From Azoarcus indigens (GTDB taxonomy: Bacteria; Pseudomonadota; Gammaproteobacteria; Burkholderiales; Rhodocyclaceae), in contig NZ_SNVV01000027.1 in the NCBI RefSeq assembly GCF_004361735.1, positions 1-64,000 of the forward strand: a stretch of DNA of 64,000 nucleotides. The letters run 5' to 3'. The notes under the pieces are model-generated. The model searched no databases. It had not been told where the DNA came from and worked only from the letters and a program-made list of their open reading frames with translations. The number at the start of each line of letters is the position of its first letter. The stretch's first letter is position 1. The position numbers were made by a program, and so were the translations under genes. Below are positions 35,395-59,599 of the stretch, in pieces.

Positions 35395-35904
35395 GGATGT
35401 CTCCTCTACAGGAGCCGCGGATTATTTGCCCATCAATGGCGCGCGGGCAGTGTGAACATCCGCACTGTGGAAAACACTTATATAAGACAGGGATGTCGAG
35501 GCCGCAGCTGGGGCGGAGTTAATGCCATCGGCGTCGTCCGTGGGCCCTTGAACGCCTTGATCGGAAAGGCTTTTGATTCCGCCATTGGTGCGGTGCAAAA
35601 GGCCACCCCAGCGGTTGGGTCTTGCCTGCTTCGTCCTGTCGAGACGGTGGCTGGAATCGGCCGGAAAATTCTTCCGGCATGCACCGGATTGAGGCTCGGA
35701 AAATGCGCTTTCGCCCCAAAAAAGGGCGCTTCCGGCCGGCTTGCCGGGGCCGGGCAAAAAAAGCTTGTTACCCCTTTCCTCCGAGGCTTTTCCCCGGATA
35801 TAGTTACGGAAAAATAGCTTTGCAATAAAGCAAATTAAGTTAGTCACCCTGGTGGAAAAGGGCAGCCTCGACGCTGCACCGGCTCCCCGCAGAGAGAGGA
35901 TCGT
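35395..35904. other. 510-bp divergent intergenic region, dctA / livH
   Basis: No credible gene. Near dctA a TATATAAG (35479-35486, read on either strand) could be a -10. In the middle are several GC hairpins, such as CGCCC-CAAAAAA-GGGCG (35712-35727). Close to livH the sequence turns AT-rich, with a small dyad TTTGC-AATAAA-GCAAA at 35819-35834, a possible operator or UTR hairpin. AGAGAGGA precedes the livH ATG. Confidence 0.5.
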
Positions 35905-49686: not shown

Positions 49687-50283
49687 TCAGCCCTCGGCGA
49701 CCTTCGCCTGCAGGGCGAGGTAATCGACCAGGTGCAGCGCCTGGTCGCTGGAAACCACCAGCTTGGACATGATCTGTCCCAGCATCTGGAACTCCTCCGC
49801 GCTGAGCGGGAAGAGCATGTCGTTCACCGGGCTCTGGATGCCGGTGAGGGCGTCGAGCTGGGTGCGCGCTTCCGGCGTCAGCGTCAGCCGCACCCGGCGG
49901 CGGTCTTCGGGGTTGGTCACCTTGGCCACAAGGCCGGCCTTCACCAGCTTGTTCACCTCGGTGGTGATGAATGCGCCGCTGAAGTGCAGGTGGTCGGCAA
50001 TGGCGTTGATGCCGGCCTCGCCATGCTGCAAGTGGGCGATGGACATCAGGATGGTGTAGGAGGTGCCGGACAGGTCCAGCAGGCGGCCGAACTTGTTGCG
50101 GATGTCCTGGATGCGCGCGGAGAAGGCGAGCAGGTCGTGCACCAGTGCGCGGAAGGCAGCGTCGCTACCGTCCACCAGCAGTTCCGGCCGCGACACGGTG
50201 AGCTTGGACGTCTTTCGTGCCGAGCTTGCGCCGGCTTTCGTGGTGGCGGTGCCGGTGGTTTGTCGCTTGGTACTGGCGGGCAT
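49687..50283 (-). CDS. MarR-family transcriptional regulator
   Basis: 198 aa. A Lys/Thr/Ala-rich N-terminal tail of about 45 residues precedes a MarR winged helix (LLDLSGTSYTILMSIAHLQ, AIADHLHFSGAFITTEVNKLVKAGL, wing TNPEDRRRVRLTLTPEA). The start at ATG 50283 was chosen because the ATG at 50325 overlaps the -10 box. It is upstream of, and co-oriented with, the hpaC operon, and shares its promoter box. Likely a phenolic-acid-responsive repressor (inference). Confidence 0.88.
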   Translation of the reverse strand: MPASTKRQTTGTATTKAGASSARKTSKLTVSRPELLVDGSDAAFRALVHDLLAFSARIQDIRNKFGRLLDLSGTSYTILMSIAHLQHGEAGINAIADHLHFSGAFITTEVNKLVKAGLVAKVTNPEDRRRVRLTLTPEARTQLDALTGIQSPVNDMLFPLSAEEFQMLGQIMSKLVVSSDQALHLVDYLALQAKVAEG

Positions 50284-50659: not shown

Positions 50660-50674
50660 TGGCACGGGGCTTGC
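50660..50674 (+). promoter_or_regulatory. sigma-54 promoter upstream of the chemoreceptor gene
   Basis: TGGCAC-GGGGC-TTGC matches the sigma-54 -24/-12 consensus exactly (GG at 50661-50662, GC at 50673-50674). It is 88 bp before the ATG at 50763. The rest of the 479-bp gap from marR is GC-rich with nothing else recognised. Confidence 0.8.
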
Positions 50675-50762
50675 GATGAGTTGCCGCAGCCCTGGCGTTT
50701 CCCGACGCCGGGGCTGCGGCTTTCCAACCCCTCGCAATACCCGACAAAACAAGGAGAAAACC

Positions 50763-51812
50763 ATGAATCGCTACGCTGACGGCGCCTTGCTCGCGCTGGC
50801 TGTGTTGTCCGCCGCCTATGCGGTCTTCGAGGGTGGCGGTGTGCCGGCAGGGGCCGCTGCGGCGCTGGTCCTCGCCGCGCTCGCAGTGCGTGCCCTGGCC
50901 GCCGCGGCCCCGGCCGGCTTGAGCCGTGCCGATGCCGCCGCTCTGGGTTCGTCCCTGGCTGCCGGCGACTGGGCGGGAGCGCAGGCGCTCGGCCAGCGGG
51001 CGGCGCCCGGCAGCGTTGCCGAAGGCCTGGCCAGGGCGATCGGCAAGCTGCTGCGCGAGCTGCAAGCGGCCGAGGAAGGGCAGGCCGCAGCGGAGCAGCG
51101 TTTGCGGGCCGCCGAGGCGAAGGCTGCCGCGATGCCCCAGGCGGCCGCCGGCGCCGGCCACCGGGTGCTGGATGGGTTGCGCGCTCGGCTGGCTGCCTTG
51201 TGTGCGTCCCAGGTGGAGTTCTGCGAGCACCTTTCGCGCGGCACCGGTGCCGCCGAGCGGGCATCCGAGAAGATCGCCACTTGCTATCGGGCGGTGCAGG
51301 AGAGCGACGGCGCGCTGACCCAGCTGCGCGACTACAGCGCCCAGGTGGCGCAGGTGTTCGCCGAGCTGACGGAGCAGTCCAACCGCATCGAGCACATCGT
51401 TTCCAGCATCCAGGAGATCGCCAGCCAGACCAATCTGCTCGCGCTCAATGCCGCCATCGAGGCGGCGCGCGCCGGCGAGAGCGGCCGCGGTTTCGCCGTG
51501 GTGGCGGACGAGGTGCGCAAGCTGGCCGAGCGCTCGGCGCTCTCCAGCAAGGAGATCGGCGACATCGCCCAGGGCCTGCATCGCACCGCCGCCGACGCCG
51601 GCAGCCGGGTCGAGCAGGCCACTTCCAGCGCGGAGCACGGCAAGAACCGCATCGAGGTGGCGATCAGGATGATGGACGACGTCACCGAGGATGCGCGGGT
51701 GCGCATGGTCGTGCTGGAGAAATCCACCCAGTTCGCGGTGCGCCAGCGCGACGAGGGCGTGGATATCGAAGCGGGCCTGGCCCAGGCGCTGGCGGGCCTG
51801 CAGGCCGCCTGA
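50763..51812 (+). CDS. methyl-accepting chemotaxis protein without periplasmic sensor domain
   Basis: 349 aa. Two closely spaced N-terminal hydrophobic segments ([15 protein letters not shown] and [20 protein letters not shown]) form a hairpin anchor with essentially no periplasmic loop. An Ala-rich helical region follows, then the signalling tip [20 protein letters not shown] with [14 protein letters not shown]. Ligand sensing must therefore be cytosolic, membrane-embedded or through a partner. Ribosome site AAGGAG is 6 nt upstream. Expression is probably sigma-54 dependent. Confidence 0.9.
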
Positions 51813-51869
51813 GCGGCGGCGGCCAAGGGGGGCTGCGCCCGGGCATCACCGCGGGCCGGCCCGCCTGCC

Positions 51870-52016
51870 TCAGCCCAGCATCCGGTAGCGTTCCAGCCAG
51901 CGCGCGTAAGGCGCCGGCAGCGCCCGGGGCGGCTTCTCCTTCTTCAGCGCCAGCGCGGCTTGGTAGGGGAGTGTGGGTTGGCGAGGCGGGCGCGGCCTAT
52001 CAAATCCGGGCTTCAT
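51870..52016 (-). pseudogene. unrecognised C-terminal coding fragment
   Basis: A minus-strand frame ending at TGA 51870-51872 reads LPYQAALALKKEKPPRALPA and then PYARWLERYRMLG. It has protein-like composition but no proper start and no recognised family. Probably the truncated end of a lost gene; it may be chance. Confidence 0.3.
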
Positions 52017-52110
52017 CAAGACCCTCGCCTGGCATGAGCGCACCCATCACTTGCCGGCCCACCGCTGGGTGCGGGCACAGTTGACTGAGACCTGCGAGGA
52101 GCCGGCTTGA
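52000..52110 (+). pseudogene. C-terminal fragment of a LysR-type regulator
   Basis: The plus-strand frame ending at TGA 52108-52110 reads FIKTLAWHERTHHLPAHRWV followed by RAQLTETCEEPA. This matches the WHxRxxxDPAHxWLR ending of NodD/NahR-type LysR proteins; the intact LysR at 40694 ends with a similar segment. No upstream part survives in frame. Confidence 0.5.
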
Positions 52111-52178
52111 GCGAGCCCCGGCGGCTGGACGCCGGCCACCCCGTTTCTGGCTCCGGCACCGCAGCCCGAGACCACTGC

Positions 52179-52202
52179 GTCAGATTGACCGGGTCAGATT
52201 GA
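52179..52202 (+). repeat. direct repeat GTCAGATTGA, 14-bp period
   Basis: Two perfect copies (52179-52188 and 52193-52202) lie about 150-170 bp upstream of the sigma-54 promoter at 52347, the usual distance for an enhancer-binding site. Not found upstream of the chemoreceptor promoter. Confidence 0.45.
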
Positions 52203-52346
52203 GCACCACCGCGGCGGGCTGCGCCAGCGCCGGCCGCCACGCCGCCTGCCGCCCTTGCGCTGGCCGTGTGCATTCCTCATCCAATCGACTGAAAGAAAAG
52301 GAAAAGCCGCCGTAAGGGCGGCATGGGCCGGAGCGCTCCCGCGCAC

Positions 52347-52361
52347 TGGCACCGGCGTTGC
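52347..52361 (+). promoter_or_regulatory. sigma-54 promoter of the channel-ALDH-GMC operon
   Basis: TGGCAC-CGGCG-TTGC, then TATTT, an exact -24/-12 consensus (GG at 52348-52349, GC at 52360-52361), 82 bp before the first ATG at 52444. Confidence 0.85.
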
Positions 52362-52443
52362 TATTTCCTCTTCGAGGCCTCGAACGCTCAGCCCCGGCAG
52401 CCGCCGGGATAAGCATCCTCAACCCCTCGAAGGAAAGAAAAAG

Positions 52444-53373
52444 ATGCGCCCAACCCCAATGAAGAGAACGCCGGCCGGCCGGCCGGTACCGTCGCGTGGT
52501 TTCCGCCTCGCCTGCCTGATGCCGCTGCTGCTTTCCCTGCTCGCAGTGGCCACGCCCGCCCACGCCATCGACGTCGAAGCCGGCGACTACACCGCTGCGC
52601 CCGCCGGCACCACGCTGGGTCTTCTCTACATGCAGCACGCGGAGCGCGAAGACCTCTACGCCAGCGGCGACAAGGTGCCCGGCAAGGGCAAGTTCCGCAG
52701 CGACGTCGGCATCCTGCGTTTCATCCACTTCATGGAACTGGGCGGCTACATCATCGACCCCCAGATCCTGATCCCCTTCGGCAACCTGCGCGGCTCGGGC
52801 GATTTCTCCAGCCTGGGCAGCAACGGCGGCTTTGCCGACCCGGTACTGGCTGCCACGCTGTGGACCATCAACGACCCGGTGAACCGCCGCTACCTGGGCA
52901 TCACGCCCTTCCTCTACGTGCCCATCGGCAACTACGACCGCGGCGAAGCCCTGAACATGGGCGAGAACCGCTGGCGCTATGCACTGCAGTTGGGCTACAT
53001 CCAGGGCATAGGCGACAAGTTCACCGTCGATCTGCTGGGCGACGTCACCTTCCACGGCGATAACACCGACTACAGCAGCACCGGCGCCACTATGAAGCAG
53101 GACCCGACCTACCAGTTCCAGGCCTTCGGCCGCTACCACATCCGGCCGGACCTGGACTTCCGCGTCGGCGTCGCCCGCTCCTGGGTGGGCAAGGTGAAGG
53201 TGGATGGGGTGGAGACCACCGGCCAGGCCATGGTTACCAAGTTCAGCGTCGGCTTCGGCTACCAGATCGTGCCGCGCACCCAGCTGTTGTTCGTCTATGG
53301 CCGCGACATCGACGTCACCGACGGCTTCAAGGAAAAGAACCGGCTGAACCTGCGCGTCGGCTACGCCTTCTGA
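52444..53373 (+). CDS. outer-membrane channel of the phenol MetA-pathway transporter family
   Basis: A 309-aa exported beta-rich protein (signal peptide ACLMPLLLSLLAVATPAHA). The body has alternating-residue strands and NDPVNRRYLGITPFLYVPIG in the middle, as in PF13557-type transporter proteins found with aromatic-degradation genes. It ends RVGYAF with the C-terminal Phe of outer-membrane barrels. It probably admits the hydrophobic substrate oxidised by the following enzymes. Start ATG 52444 has AAGGAA upstream. Confidence 0.85.
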   Translation: MRPTPMKRTPAGRPVPSRGFRLACLMPLLLSLLAVATPAHAIDVEAGDYTAAPAGTTLGLLYMQHAEREDLYASGDKVPGKGKFRSDVGILRFIHFMELGGYIIDPQILIPFGNLRGSGDFSSLGSNGGFADPVLAATLWTINDPVNRRYLGITPFLYVPIGNYDRGEALNMGENRWRYALQLGYIQGIGDKFTVDLLGDVTFHGDNTDYSSTGATMKQDPTYQFQAFGRYHIRPDLDFRVGVARSWVGKVKVDGVETTGQAMVTKFSVGFGYQIVPRTQLLFVYGRDIDVTDGFKEKNRLNLRVGYAF

Positions 53374-53484
53374 GGCGCCGGCGGGCGGGGGGTGGATTGC
53401 GTCCGGCCCGCGCGCCGCATGCGGTCCGCCCGCCGCGCCCCCCGTTGCCCCTCTTCCTTCCCGCATCTGAACAGGAAAGATCCC

Positions 53485-54921
53485 ATGACAGAGAAGATAG
53501 CCCACCTGTACCCCGCTCCGCTCACCGGCCCGCAGGTGCCCCTGCTGGAGCCGGCCACCGGCGCCACGCTGGCCGGGCTGCGGCTGGCTTCGGTGGCCGA
53601 CGTGGCTGCCGCCGCCGAAGCCGCCGCCACCGCGCAGGCCGCCTGGGCGGCGACGCCCTTCGACCAGCGCGCGGCGGTGATGCGCCGTGCCGCCGAGCTG
53701 CTGCGCGAGCGCGCCGACACCTTCAACCGCTGGAACGTGCGCGAGTGCGGCTCCATTCTGCCCAAGGCGGAATGGGAGCTGAACGCCTCCTACGAGCAGT
53801 TGCACAACGCCGCCGGGCTGATCGCCCAGCCGCATGGCCACATCATGCCGTCCTCGGTGCCGGGCCGGACCAATCTGTGGTCGCGGGTGCCCATCGGCGT
53901 GGTCGGCATCATCGCGCCGTGGAACTACCCGCTGCTGCTGGCGATGCGTTCGCTGGCGCCGGCGCTGGCGCTGGGCAACGCGGTGCTGCTGAAGCCGGCG
54001 CTGCAAGGCTCGGTGTGCGGCGGCCTGCTGCTGGCCGAGCTGTTCCGCGACGCCGGCCTGCCGGCGGGCGTGCTCAGCGTGCTGCCGGGCGAGGCGGACG
54101 TGGGCGACGCTATCGTGCGCGATGCCCGCGTCGGCATGATCTCCTTCACCGGCTCCACCGCGGTGGGCAAGCGCATCGGCGAACTCTGCGGCGGCCTGTT
54201 GAAGAAGGTGGCGCTGGAGCTGGGCGGCAATAACGCCTTCATCGTGCTGGAGGACGCCGACATCGAGGCCGCCGCCTCCCACGGCGCCTGGGGCGCCTTC
54301 CTGCACCAGGGCCAGATCTGCATGCAGGCTGGCCGCCACCTGGTGCACGAGGCGGTAGCGGCGCAGTACGCCGAGGCGCTGGCGCGCCGCGCCAAGGCGC
54401 TGCGGGTGGGCAACCCGGACACCGAAACGGTGCATCTCGGCCCGCTCATCAACGCCCAGCAGCGCGCCAAGGTGGGCGGCATCGTCAGGGACACGCTGGC
54501 GCGCGGCGCCAGCCTGCTGGCCGGCGGCAAAGGCGAGGGCCTGTTCTACGAGGCCACCGTGCTCGGCGGCGTCACGCCGGACATGCCGGCCTTCATCGAC
54601 GAGATCTTCGGCCCGGTGGCGCCCATCACCCCCTTCGCCGGCGACGACGCCCTGGTGGCGCTGGTGAACAGTTCGCCCTACGGCCTCTCCGCCGCCATCC
54701 ATACCCGCGACCTCGCCCGTGGCCTGGAACTTGCGCAGCGGTTGAAGACCGGCATGGTGCACATCAACGACCAGACGGTGAATGCCGAATTCAACGTGCC
54801 CTTCGGCGGCATGGGCGCCTCCGGCAACGGCGGCCGCTTCGGCGGGCCGGTGAATGCCGAGGAATTCACCCAGAGTCAGTGGGTGTCCATGGTGTCCCGC
54901 CCGGTCACCTATCCCTTCTGA
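53485..54921 (+). CDS. NAD(P)-dependent aldehyde dehydrogenase (benzaldehyde dehydrogenase-like)
   Basis: A 478-aa cytosolic ALDH. Catalytic Cys279 in HQGQICMQ, general-base Glu245 in VALELGGNN, Asn147 in APWNYP, and the nucleotide-binding FTGSTAVGK near 221-229. Resemblance to XylC-type benzaldehyde dehydrogenases suggests an aromatic or short aliphatic aldehyde produced by the next gene. Ribosome site AGGAAAG precedes the ATG. Confidence 0.92.
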   Translation: MTEKIAHLYPAPLTGPQVPLLEPATGATLAGLRLASVADVAAAAEAAATAQAAWAATPFDQRAAVMRRAAELLRERADTFNRWNVRECGSILPKAEWELNASYEQLHNAAGLIAQPHGHIMPSSVPGRTNLWSRVPIGVVGIIAPWNYPLLLAMRSLAPALALGNAVLLKPALQGSVCGGLLLAELFRDAGLPAGVLSVLPGEADVGDAIVRDARVGMISFTGSTAVGKRIGELCGGLLKKVALELGGNNAFIVLEDADIEAAASHGAWGAFLHQGQICMQAGRHLVHEAVAAQYAEALARRAKALRVGNPDTETVHLGPLINAQQRAKVGGIVRDTLARGASLLAGGKGEGLFYEATVLGGVTPDMPAFIDEIFGPVAPITPFAGDDALVALVNSSPYGLSAAIHTRDLARGLELAQRLKTGMVHINDQTVNAEFNVPFGGMGASGNGGRFGGPVNAEEFTQSQWVSMVSRPVTYPF

Positions 54922-54999
54922 ACGCAGCGGGCGACACGATCCGCGCCTTCCTTCCCCCGACCCCAACGAGAAGCGCAACCCCCCGACAAGGAAAACTCC

Positions 55000-56745
55000 A
55001 TGGATAAGGAAAACAAGTCCCGCCTCGAACTCAACGAGGAGGTGAACCGCCTCGAATCCGCGCTGATGCGTGGCCGCGGCGACCGCCGCCAGTTTCTCAA
55101 GGCTGCCACCGCCGCCGGCTACAGCATGGCCGCGGCCACCTCGATGATGGCCTTCGCCGACCGCGCCTTCGCCCAGCAGTCCGCCAACCGCGCGGCGCTC
55201 ACCGCCGAGTACGACTTCATCGTCTGCGGCGCCGGCTCGGCCGGCTGCGCGGTGGCCCGCCGGCTGGCGGACAACCCCAACGTGCGGGTGCTGCTGCTGG
55301 AAGCCGGCGGCTCCGACAACGTGCCGCAGGTGATGGACGGCACCCGCTGGCCGGAGAACATCGGCAGCGAACGCGATTGGGCGTTCAAGGGCCAGCCCAC
55401 GCCCACCCTCAACGGCCGCACGCCGCCCTTCCCGATGGGCAAGGTGCTGGGCGGCGGTTCCAGCGTGAATGGCCTGGTGTGGGCGCGCGGCCACAAGAAC
55501 GACTGGGACATGTGGGCCGAGGTGTCCGGCGAAAAGGCGTGGAGCTATGAGTCGGTGCTCGGCATCTACCGCCGCATCGAAGACTGGCAAGGGCCGGCCG
55601 ATCCCAAGCGGCGCGGCAAGGGCGGCGAGGTCTACCTGTCGCTGCCGGAAGCGCCGATCAACCCAGTGGCGCCGGCGCTGATCGAGGCGGCGGGCGATTT
55701 CGGCATGCCCAAGGTGGTGGACCTCAACGGCGAGATCATGGAAGGCGAGGGCGGCGCCGGCATGCCCAACCTCATCGTCAAGAACGGCCGCCGGGTGTCG
55801 ATGGCGGTGGCCTACATCCACCCCATCATGGACCGCTCCAACATCACCGTGCTGCTGGGCGCGCATGTGAACCGGCTCAAGTTCAAGGGCAAGCGCGTCA
55901 CCGGCGTGGAGTTCGTGCATGAGGGCAAGGTGCACACCATCGCGGCGAAGCATGAGGTCATCCTCTCCACCGGCGCCATCAACACCCCGCGCATCCTGAT
56001 GATCTCCGGCGTCGGCCCGGAGAAGGAGCTGAAGAAGCACGGCATTCCGGTGGTGCAGAAGCTGGAGGGCGTGGGCCAGAACTTCCAGGATCACATCCTG
56101 CTCGGCGGCTGCATGTGGGAGTACTTCACGCCGGAGCCCGGGCGCAACAACTCGGCGGAATTCACCTTCTTCTGGAAGAGCGATTCCTCGCTGAGGACCC
56201 CCGACCTGCAGCCCTTCCTGGAGGAATTCCCCTACACCAGCGAAGTCACCCGCGAGCAATACACCATCCCGAAGGCAGCCTGGGTGCTGGCGGCGGCCAT
56301 CGTGCAGCCCACCAGCCGCGGCCACATGACCATCAGCGGCCCGCGCCCGCAAGATCCGCCGCTGATCTACCCCAACTTCCTCTCCACCGAGCAGGACATC
56401 AAGGCGCTCACCCGTTCGGTCGAGATCTGCCGCGAACTGGGCAACTCCAAGCACCTCAAGCCCTACGCCAAGCGCGAGATCATGCCGGGCGAACTCAAGG
56501 GCAAGGAGCTGGAGCGCTTCATCCGCAACGCCGCCGGCACCTACTTCCACGAAACCTGCACCTGCAAGATGGGCCGTGACGAGATGTCGGTGGTGGACGG
56601 CAAGCTGCGGGTGTATGGGCTGGAGGGGCTGCGCATCGCCGACGGTTCCATCATGCCGGCGATCACCACCGGCAACACCATGGCGCCCTGCGTGGTGATC
56701 GGCGAGCGCTGCGCCGAGGAGCTGAAGCAGCAGTACCGCATCTGA
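55000..56745 (+). CDS. Tat-exported GMC-family alcohol oxidoreductase
   Basis: A 581-aa FAD-dependent glucose-methanol-choline oxidoreductase. The Tat signal has Arg29-Arg30 in GDRRQFLKAATAAG and a hydrophobic stretch, with cleavage near AFAQQ. FAD motif FIVCGAGSAGCAVARRL, GMC signatures MGKVLGGGSSVNGLVWARG and STGAINTPRILMISG, catalytic His517 (FHETCTCKMG) and a second active-site position Asn559 (TTGNTMAP). Predicted to fold with FAD in the cytosol and oxidise an alcohol in the periplasm. AAGGA precedes the ATG. Confidence 0.92.
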   Translation: MDKENKSRLELNEEVNRLESALMRGRGDRRQFLKAATAAGYSMAAATSMMAFADRAFAQQSANRAALTAEYDFIVCGAGSAGCAVARRLADNPNVRVLLLEAGGSDNVPQVMDGTRWPENIGSERDWAFKGQPTPTLNGRTPPFPMGKVLGGGSSVNGLVWARGHKNDWDMWAEVSGEKAWSYESVLGIYRRIEDWQGPADPKRRGKGGEVYLSLPEAPINPVAPALIEAAGDFGMPKVVDLNGEIMEGEGGAGMPNLIVKNGRRVSMAVAYIHPIMDRSNITVLLGAHVNRLKFKGKRVTGVEFVHEGKVHTIAAKHEVILSTGAINTPRILMISGVGPEKELKKHGIPVVQKLEGVGQNFQDHILLGGCMWEYFTPEPGRNNSAEFTFFWKSDSSLRTPDLQPFLEEFPYTSEVTREQYTIPKAAWVLAAAIVQPTSRGHMTISGPRPQDPPLIYPNFLSTEQDIKALTRSVEICRELGNSKHLKPYAKREIMPGELKGKELERFIRNAAGTYFHETCTCKMGRDEMSVVDGKLRVYGLEGLRIADGSIMPAITTGNTMAPCVVIGERCAEELKQQYRI

Positions 56746-56903
56746 GCCGCCGTCGGGGAGGCTGGCGCTTGGTTTGACCGGGCCTTTGGTTCGTCCGGTC
56801 GAAGGCCTCATCCAGCCCGCTGGCCCCCCGCCGTGGGCGACCCCATGCCCGTGCGGGAACGGGCCGCCGGGCGTGCATGGCTTCAGCCGCGCCCGGCCTT
56901 GCC

Positions 56904-56942
56904 GCCACTACGCCAGCTCAGGCTGGGGTGGTGGCTTTTTTT
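56904..56942 (+). terminator. rho-independent terminator of the channel-ALDH-GMC operon
   Basis: GCCAC...GTGGC outer stem (56904-56908 with 56931-56935) enclosing CCAGC/GCTGG, followed by seven T residues. It is the strongest terminator on this strand after the GMC gene. The 202 bp between the GMC stop and vapC contain nothing else recognised. Confidence 0.85.
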
Positions 56943-56947
56943 GCGTC

Positions 56948-57334
56948 TCAGACGGTGGCGATGGTGTCGCTGTAGCGGGCAAGCACTGCGTCGTGGGTGA
57001 GCAGTCGCATCGGCTCGACCAGGGCCTGCGCGACGATGAGTCGGTCGAAAGGGTCCTGGTGGTGGCGGGGCAGCTTTTCGACCGCTACCGCATGTTCGGC
57101 TTCTATCGGCAGCAATCGATAGCCTGCGGCCTCGAAATAGCGGCTGGCCTCCTGCCCCGCGACCGGCATATCGCCACGAGCCAGAGAATGCTTGATGGCA
57201 ATTTCCCACAGGCTGGCGACACTGACCCAGATGGAGGCCCTGGGCGATTGAATCAGCTCGCGGGCGGTGACGGAAAGCCGCGGGCTGTCTGTGATCGCCC
57301 ACAAGGCGACGTGGGTATCCAGCAGCAGATTCAC
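56948..57334 (-). CDS. PIN-domain toxin (VapC-like)
   Basis: A 128-aa PIN ribonuclease. Acidic residues of the metal site are in LLLDTHVALWAI (Asp6), SLWEIAIKH (Glu) and DPFDRLIVAQAL (Asp), with a further Asp near LLTHDAVLARY. Encoded with a Phd-type antitoxin whose stop overlaps its start by 4 bp. The pair forms a type II toxin-antitoxin module. Confidence 0.9.
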   Translation of the reverse strand: MNLLLDTHVALWAITDSPRLSVTARELIQSPRASIWVSVASLWEIAIKHSLARGDMPVAGQEASRYFEAAGYRLLPIEAEHAVAVEKLPRHHQDPFDRLIVAQALVEPMRLLTHDAVLARYSDTIATV

Positions 57335-57664: not shown

Positions 57665-59599
57665 TCAGCCCCGGCTCTCCGCCAACTGCTGCTTCAGCCG
57701 CGCGCTGGCGCGCACCCGGCGCTGCAAGGTGGAACGGCTGACGCCCAGGTGGTCGGCGGCGCGGGAGAGATTGCCGCCGGTGAGGCGCAGGGCATCGGCC
57801 ATCGCTTGTTCTTCCAGGGCGCTTAGGGAGGCCGGCGGCGTGCTGGCCGCGGGCTGGGCCGGGGCAATGGCAGGCAGGCTTGCGGCGACCGCGGCCGGGG
57901 GCAGGGCGAAGCGCACATGTTCGGCGCTGATGGCCTCAGCCGCCTCGCACAGCAGGGCGGCGCGCTTGAGCACGCTGAGCGCTTCGCGCGCATTGCCCGG
58001 CCAGGGGTAGGCGGCGAGCAGGGCGGTGGCTTCCGGGGTGAGGCCGCCGGGGTGGCCGGCGCCGTCGCGCGCCAGGGTGGCGAAGAGGTCCGCCAGGCGG
58101 CTGCGTTCGCGCAGCGGCGCGAGCGCCAGGGTGTAGCCGGCGATGCGGTAATACAGATCGGCGCGGAAGCGGCCCTGGGCCACCAGCGTGTCCAGGTCCT
58201 GGTGGGTGGCGCACAGCAGGCGGAATTCCACCGGCCGTGGTTTGCCGCTGCCCAGGCGGGCCACTTCGCGGCTGTCCAGCACCCGCAGCAGGCGGGCCTG
58301 CAGGGCGAGCGGCATGTCGCCGATCTCGTCGAGGAAGAGGGTGCCGCCGTCGGCCTCCTCGATGCGGCCGCTGGCGCCGCCCTTGCGGCCGCCGGTGAAG
58401 GCGCCATCGGTGTAGCCGAAGAGTTCGGATTCGATCAGCGCTTCCGGCAGCGCGGCGCAGTTGATGGCGACGAAGGGGCCGGCCGGCTGCTGGCGGTGCA
58501 ACGCATGGGCGACCACCTCCTTGCCGCTGCCGGTCTCGCCACGCAGCAACACCGGCAGGCCCTTGTCCAGCGCCTTGAGGGCGATGCGGAAGCGGCCGGC
58601 GAATTCCGGGTCGCCCATTTCCGGGGCGTCCTGCCCGACGTTGGCCATGGCCGTGGCGCGGGGCATGGAGAGCGGCTGCCGCGCGGGGGCGCCGCTGCGT
58701 GTCTCGATGAACACGAACAGGCCGGAGTTCAGCCGTATCGGCAGCGGCCGGCCGCTCTGGGCGAGGAGTTCCAGCCACTGGCCGTACTGGCCGTCGAAGA
58801 CGCTCTCGAAGCTGAGCATGGCCAGCGGCAGGCCCAGCGGATTGAGGATGCGCCGCGCCTCGCGCGTCATGCCCAGCACCTCGCCATCGGCCCCGAAGGC
58901 GACGGTGGCATTGCGCGATTCGCCGTTGGCGCTCCAGCTCATGCGCAGGGTGAGGCGGGCGCGTAACCGCTCCAGTTGACGGTGTTCGATGGCGCTGGCG
59001 CAGCTCTCCGCCAAGCTGATGGCGCCGAACTCGCGGCCCTCGCGGTGCTTGGTCAGATTCACCGCGCCGACCAGCTGCCCAGCTGGATCGAAGATGGGCG
59101 CGGCGGCGCAGTAGAAGGCGGCGTTGGCCTCGAAATAGTGCTCATGGCCGAAGACCTGCACCGGCCGCTGGCAGGCGAGGGCGCAGTTCATGGCCGCGGT
59201 GCCTATGGCCTGTTCGGACATGTCGCAGCCCAGCTGCAAGGCCTCGTACAGCTCGCCGCTCGCCTCGCGCGGATCGGTGAAGCGGGCGATGGTGAGCGCC
59301 TCGGCATCAGTCAGCACCGGATGGAAGCCGGATTCGTGCAGCACCCGGGCGAACAGGCCCAGCGTGGCCTCGAAGTCGCGGATCAGCAGGGCGTTGCGGC
59401 CGCGCAGTTCCTCCACCCGGCTGCGGTCATGGATGTTGAAGCCGACCCGCGCCGAGGCCGGGCGCTGGTCGGCGCAGCGCCGCCAGGAGTCGAGGATGGC
59501 GGCATCCACCAGCCCGTCCGGCGTTTCGCCCTGCCCGAAGAATAGTTCGCGGGCGCGATGGGCATGCAGGCCCGGCACTGCTGCGGCGAATCTCGACAT
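57665..59599 (-). CDS. AcoR-type sigma-54-dependent transcriptional activator
   Basis: 644 aa. N-terminal sensor part with a GAF domain (about 85-200), then a PAS-like stretch (about 230-300), AAA+ domain with Walker A GETGSGK (354-360), sigma-54 loop GAFTGG (399-404; canonical is GAFTGA) and Walker B GGTLFLDEIGD, then a Fis-type HTH (GGNLSRAADHLGVSRSTLQRR). The start at ATG 59599 (MSRFAAAVPG) matches AcoR-type N-termini. The likely activator of the two sigma-54 promoters at 50660 and 52347 (inference). Confidence 0.93.
   Translation of the reverse strand: MSRFAAAVPGLHAHRARELFFGQGETPDGLVDAAILDSWRRCADQRPASARVGFNIHDRSRVEELRGRNALLIRDFEATLGLFARVLHESGFHPVLTDAEALTIARFTDPREASGELYEALQLGCDMSEQAIGTAAMNCALACQRPVQVFGHEHYFEANAAFYCAAAPIFDPAGQLVGAVNLTKHREGREFGAISLAESCASAIEHRQLERLRARLTLRMSWSANGESRNATVAFGADGEVLGMTREARRILNPLGLPLAMLSFESVFDGQYGQWLELLAQSGRPLPIRLNSGLFVFIETRSGAPARQPLSMPRATAMANVGQDAPEMGDPEFAGRFRIALKALDKGLPVLLRGETGSGKEVVAHALHRQQPAGPFVAINCAALPEALIESELFGYTDGAFTGGRKGGASGRIEEADGGTLFLDEIGDMPLALQARLLRVLDSREVARLGSGKPRPVEFRLLCATHQDLDTLVAQGRFRADLYYRIAGYTLALAPLRERSRLADLFATLARDGAGHPGGLTPEATALLAAYPWPGNAREALSVLKRAALLCEAAEAISAEHVRFALPPAAVAASLPAIAPAQPAASTPPASLSALEEQAMADALRLTGGNLSRAADHLGVSRSTLQRRVRASARLKQQLAESRG

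Follow-up and report, generated by a model that had tools for sequence, protein, structure and literature searches.

Which sigma factor transcribes a putative channel, aldehyde dehydrogenase and GMC oxidoreductase operon of Azoarcus indigens, and which activator might be involved, is a question raised by a short sequence in front of its first gene. The operon lies in the window, as the whole stretch of 64,000 nucleotides analysed is called here (contig NZ_SNVV01000027.1, positions 1 to 64,000). The consensus of sigma54 (RpoN) −24/−12 promoters is TGGCAC-N5-TTGC, and a motif scan of the window returns an exact match, TGGCACCGGCGTTGC (TGGCAC-CGGCG-TTGC), on the plus strand at 52347–52361, with the GG and GC of the −24 and −12 elements correctly spaced and 82 bp between the match and the ATG at 52444 of the channel gene. 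The preliminary description, which had picked out this match by eye, was correct as to its position, orientation and distance from the gene, and its claim of a single further exact match within 1.7 kb also holds, the other being at 50660–50674 on the same strand, 1,687 bp apart. By our own codon-usage gene caller, trained on nine genes of the window and used for all motif placements, the 52347 site is intergenic and co-oriented with the channel gene; the caller puts the channel start at 52519, and 52444 is preferred and was used instead because by eye it has a ribosome-binding site, AAGGAAAG, and gives a signal-like N-terminus.

As a count the motif is only mildly unusual. Dinucleotide-shuffled windows (n = 100) held a mean of 0.18 matches, with at least two in 2 of the 100, and the 5.46-Mb genome contains 25 exact matches (the reversed pattern occurs 3 times) where about 15 would be expected by chance if the shuffle mean of the window is scaled up. 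It is position and not count that separates the signal from chance, since 20 of the 25 fall in intergenic DNA and point towards a gene that starts 23–207 bp downstream, whereas such a placement, within slightly wider limits of 10–250 bp, is found for 4.4% of position-and-strand combinations in the window, from which alone this background derives; in a simple model with that background, at least 20 promoter-like placements among 25 has a P of about 4e-23. Four of the remaining matches are inside called genes (L001, L005, L011, L014) and one points towards the end of a gene that runs the other way (L021), and so the concern, raised with the original reading, that the motif might be frequent at non-promoter positions is not borne out. 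The downstream proteins of 18 of the 20 promoter-like sites were scanned with Pfam, some of them cut by a locus end, the other two sites being those of the window itself; they include a NifH-family protein, a NifB-like radical SAM protein, FliK, a PQQ alcohol dehydrogenase and a cytochrome c, and two of the 18 (L002, L009) have no Pfam match.

That the motif at 52347 is there by chance and an undetected sigma70 promoter drives the operon is hardly credible. The roughly 15 matches expected per genome and the five genomic copies in non-promoter places leave some room for it, and a scan of 51800–52480 that returned no sigma70-like site says little and excludes nothing, because 50 shuffles gave none either (mean 0.0). 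However, the motif sits before genes across the genome, and the site and the tandem repeat upstream of it, described below, are conserved; on genome-wide placement and conservation together a chance match at 52347 is rejected, and the reading as a sigma54 promoter is well supported.

Two full rpoN genes are present in the genome (L132, L133; both matches over the curated cut-off), one of them on contig C20 near two exact sigma54 sites and an activator gene. Sigma54_activat matches number 28; 22 of these are strong (E of 6e-60 or lower), including one in the operon cluster. On contig C19 two exact sigma54 sites about 5 kb apart (29519 and 34422; L018 and L019) precede the genes for the PQQ alcohol dehydrogenase and the cytochrome c, and an activator gene is close by at 35747; these perhaps constitute a second alcohol-oxidation circuit built on the same logic.

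The identities first proposed for the three genes are confirmed by Pfam. All on the plus strand, they are the outer-membrane channel gene (52444–53373; PF13557, Phenol_MetA_deg, 133 bits), the aldehyde dehydrogenase gene (53485–54921; PF00171, 501.5 bits) and the gene of a GMC-type alcohol dehydrogenase/oxidase (55000–56745; GMC_oxred_N and GMC_oxred_C) with an N-terminal RRQFLK, a Tat-like motif that may direct export. Gaps of 111 bp and 78 bp separate them in turn, no plus-strand terminator-like site is found in either gap, and the two plus-strand sites in 53300–57000 fall just past the GMC gene, although with 3 sites in total this interval is not above its shuffles (mean 2.3); the three genes are presumably transcribed together. 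A minus-strand PIN-domain gene, presumably VapC-like, lies at 56948–57334 between the GMC and activator genes in Azoarcus, and the GMC to activator spacing is only about 95–140 bp in the Comamonas and Pseudomonas relatives introduced below. Operons pairing a GMC alcohol dehydrogenase with an aldehyde dehydrogenase are a known kind for alcohol catabolism, and the present one resembles them in gene content, the pair being adjacent also in several of the loci compared (L061, L063, L066, L072). Searches with profile models and against solved structures gave no characterised orthologue of the operon; among the solved structures that align with the GMC protein across most of their own length are those of pyridoxine 4-oxidase and choline oxidase.

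The GMC protein served as query in the search for related operons; among 101 relatives it returned, besides the genome itself, only a near copy in the same genus (G003, 99%) and a relative at 63% (G088). Azoarcus sp. TTM-91 (L056) has the entire neighbourhood at 94–100% protein identity, and Comamonas sp. BIGb0124 (L057) has the channel, aldehyde dehydrogenase and GMC genes with the convergent activator gene (69, 72, 83 and 53% identity). Plasmid pBYT5-1 of Pseudomonas sp. BYT-5 (L131; GMC 89% identical over 90% of the query) carries all four genes in a rearranged order, with the channel gene beyond the activator and an IS1411 transposase gene separating aldehyde dehydrogenase and GMC. In that stretch (L131 13637–16578) a gap of 38 bp separates the end of the transposase gene from the annotated start of GMC, whose frame is without the RRQFLK leader.

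Sigma54 sites precede the orthologous genes in each of these loci. In TTM-91 the site is exact and the promoter (52340–52366) is 100% identical, as is the repeat (52174–52204), whereas the remaining spacer, excluding also 52367–52395, is 82% identical and drops to 45–70% when 52253–52332 is taken in blocks of 20 bp. The split operon of BYT-5 has a site before each piece, exact before the aldehyde dehydrogenase and with 1 mismatch before the channel (TGGCATCGACCTTGC, no recognisable repeat being present there), and the Comamonas promoter GGGCATGACGATTGC is weaker, with 2 mismatches. Of the relatives of the GMC and aldehyde dehydrogenase operon only some have a sigma54 site. A survey of up to 500 bp before the GMC match in the first 20 of 73 GMC-relative loci (L056–L075) found an exact site in three (L058, L059, L062), a site with 1 mismatch in two (L061, and L057, where it falls within the aldehyde dehydrogenase gene), a site with 2 mismatches in four (L069, L072, L074, and L056, where it too falls within that gene) and none at up to 2 mismatches in the other 11, and so sigma54 control is not general in the GMC enzyme family.

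Upstream of the promoter, between it and a chemotaxis gene, GTCAGATTGACCGGGTCAGATTGA at 52179–52202 forms a tandem repeat of period 14, GTCAGATTGA-N4-GTCAGATTGA on the plus strand, which is probably the enhancer (upstream activating sequence). Its 23-mer core begins at 52180, 167 bp ahead of the first base of the −24 element, and the corresponding distances are 166 bp in TTM-91, 121 bp in Comamonas and 129 bp in BYT-5; a review (PMC7057263) places enhancers approximately 100–150 bp upstream. The repeat is unique in the 5.46-Mb genome, with no second copy at up to 3 mismatches. A search of eight genomes or records at the same tolerance gave three hits with fewer than 3 mismatches, namely TTM-91 (0 mismatches), Comamonas (before the orthologous operon, all 18 specified bases identical, but inverted) and BYT-5, before the aldehyde dehydrogenase gene (16 of 18 bases, 2 mismatches), and seven others with exactly 3; for the reversed pattern 6 hits were obtained, all of them in a single one of the eight (G458). 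Passive inheritance is argued against because the repeat is inverted in Comamonas and the rest of the spacer there gives no useful MAFFT alignment. The carriers amount to only three distinct lineages, and an order-wide search at up to 1 mismatch found the repeat in 1 of 399 genomes, that of the window itself, in what is a thin sample (the rows shown of the order draw include G001 and not G003 of the same genus). No paper on this repeat is apparent by title among the literature matches listed for its letters.

Other features accompany the spacer. An IHF-like site at up to 1 mismatch is absent from the spacers of the window and TTM-91, and candidates are present in the Comamonas spacer and in both BYT-5 spacers. 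Two overlapping terminator-like hairpins lie on the minus strand at 52306–52323 between repeat and promoter (2 found, 0.3 in shuffles) and by eye are not conserved in TTM-91. Directly upstream of the repeat, 51870–52121 on the minus strand resembles a decayed gene end (PYARWLERYRMLG-stop), a 41-residue stop-free part of which has no Pfam match. Before a Curvibacter GMC gene (L062 7903–7927) one perfect TCAGATTGA half on the minus strand occurs without a second half, one base from an exact sigma54 site, which may be chance.

The activator gene in the cluster (57665–59599, minus strand) is at the operon end and convergent with it, and encodes an AAA+ sigma54 activator domain (PF00158, 200 bits) with a C-terminal Fis-type HTH (PF02954, 40 bits) and no receiver-domain match in Pfam. 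The protein may be AcoR-like; among the profile models matching it PrpR ranks highest, its match being limited to the AAA+ and HTH part, and no AcoR model is among the best 25 of 26. Matches at E 1e-130 or better were confined to its own genome in both the class draw (1 of 369 genomes) and the order draw (1 of 399), thin samples in each case. The recognition helix reads SRSTLQRR in the window activator and in its Comamonas relative, and in BYT-5 the same residues are found by eye out of frame and past the gene end, the annotated frame (L131 16715–18643) stopping before the HTH. TLQRR is absent from the 10 other activators compared (13 of 16 loci compared) and from the last 45 residues of 18 other activators of the genome. 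All three repeat-bearing loci thus hold a related activator with SRSTLQRR, out of frame in BYT-5, which favours a pairing of activator and repeat.

The sigma54 contact loop is the odd part of this protein. Single-component catabolic sigma54 activators are matched in the AAA+ Sigma54_activat domain, the Fis-type HTH, the lack of a receiver match and the placing of the gene convergently beside its probable target operon, but GAFTGG replaces GAFTGA in the window activator, with GTYTGG in Comamonas and GAFTGA in BYT-5. Among the 22 strong activators of the genome 19 loops could be read, 12 being GAFTGA, 5 GAYTGA, 1 GSFTGA and 1, that of the linked activator, GAFTGG, and no loop was read by the pattern in L167, L172 and L181. 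In a survey of such loops (PMC3162934) the changes of A6 to G and A2 to T are listed as putatively functional, the former not experimentally so, and F3 to Y is found in a validated activator.

Given this loop it might be supposed that the promoter is sigma54 dependent but that another activator of the genome drives it and owns the repeat, since Sigma54_activat has 21 other strong matches there, including a paralogue 47% identical to the linked one. We consider this distinctly unlikely, because the repeat travels with relatives of the linked activator having the same recognition helix in all three lineages (Azoarcus, Comamonas and the Pseudomonas plasmid), because its single occurrence in the genome is what a dedicated regulator would lead one to expect, and because the helix of the 47% identical paralogue (L178) differs, reading SRATLYRR. 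Alternatively, on a genuine sigma54 promoter the repeat could be the operator of a regulator of another kind, for example the MarR-type repressor encoded at 49687–50283. Two MarR-type genes are in the neighbourhood, and a separate perfect palindrome, TTCGAGGCCTCGAA at 52371–52384, spans the expected transcription start (about 52373, as reckoned from the promoter). Yet the 17.7-kb Comamonas locus has the repeat and no relative of the neighbouring MarR, HpaB and HpaC proteins at E 1e-8, and the distance of the repeat upstream suits an activator, and so such an operator is very unlikely. The palindrome itself may possibly be an extra operator; it occurs once in the window at up to 2 mismatches (at least one copy in 16 of 100 shuffles) and by eye can be found in TTM-91 but not in Comamonas.

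The second exact site, at 50660–50674 on the plus strand, precedes a chemotaxis-transducer (MCPsignal) gene at 50763–51812. A use by this promoter of a second enhancer copy is rejected, none being present in the genome at up to 3 mismatches, and shared control of the two sites is thereby unsupported; they are probably separate units. A 16-pair hairpin at 50684–50719 (minimum free energy −37.1 kcal/mol for 80 nt, z −6.05, none of 200 shuffles as low) starts close to where the transducer mRNA driven from 50660 would be expected to begin, and a similar sequence is seen by eye in TTM-91. A bolder and rather unlikely view is that one enhancer serves both promoters and that a sigma54 module, composed of the GAFTGG/GTYTGG activator, an invertible tandem TCAN3TGA enhancer, the promoter and the channel, GMC and aldehyde dehydrogenase genes, has moved between Azoarcus, Comamonas and a Pseudomonas plasmid. 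Were this so, the single Azoarcus enhancer also serving the transducer promoter 1.5 kb upstream would link chemotaxis to catabolism of the same compound.

Overall we hold it highly probable that 52347–52361 is a real RpoN promoter of the channel, aldehyde dehydrogenase and GMC operon, opened by the linked activator from the tandem repeat; most likely the activator binds the repeat and so switches the operon on. RNA polymerase with RpoN would wait at the site as a closed complex until the activator, having sensed a small ligand, presumably one of the alcohols or aldehydes that the operon enzymes act on, occupies the tandem TCAGATTGA sites at 52179–52202, loops the DNA and spends ATP in opening the promoter. 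The channel would then admit the substrate, the GMC enzyme, perhaps exported by its RRQFLK leader, would oxidise alcohol to aldehyde, and the aldehyde dehydrogenase would turn the aldehyde into an acid. A pyridine alcohol is one candidate substrate, because the pBYT5-1 module adjoins genes annotated as 2,5-dihydroxypyridine dioxygenase, molybdopterin-binding protein, 2Fe-2S protein and others, which we take to be of the nicotinate pathway; no genes of that type are among the 30 window proteins, from beyond the first 20 kb, scanned with Pfam. By title and the start of the abstract, none of the publications found for BYT-5 or for GMC with sigma54 deals with this locus. Counting against the preferred reading are the GAFTGG loop, the 2 mismatches in Comamonas, the BYT-5 channel without a repeat, the BYT-5 activator frame lacking its HTH, the absence of an IHF-like site at up to 1 mismatch from the window and TTM-91 spacers, the 11 of 20 GMC-relative loci without a sigma54 site and the small number of lineages, three, that have the repeat.

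All the parts belong to a well-known regulatory kind. The exact motif, its GG/GC spacing and intergenic position, the probable upstream enhancer and a genome that encodes RpoN and activators are all as in sigma54 promoters, with no departure from the class in the features tested, and that promoter and upstream switch are an ordinary, textbook form of bacterial gene control is well supported. The candidate enhancer, TCAN3TGA-N5-TCAN3TGA, is unlike the TGT-N10-12-ACA type that PMC6615313 describes for fifteen clostridial groups and likens to those of FhlA and NifA, AcoR being given a distinct motif there.

The first reading of this locus lacked the repeat and its tie to the activator gene, and with this pair added a motif spotted by eye grows into a testable putative circuit in which an activator acts through a probable enhancer on the promoter of its target genes. 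The repeat and the SRSTLQRR helix are proposed as a specificity pair for sigma54 activators, and a promoter with a dedicated, possibly alcohol-responsive activator could serve as a biosensor part. With its two RpoN paralogues the genome also offers a natural setting in which to ask whether one of them works with a GAFTGG loop.
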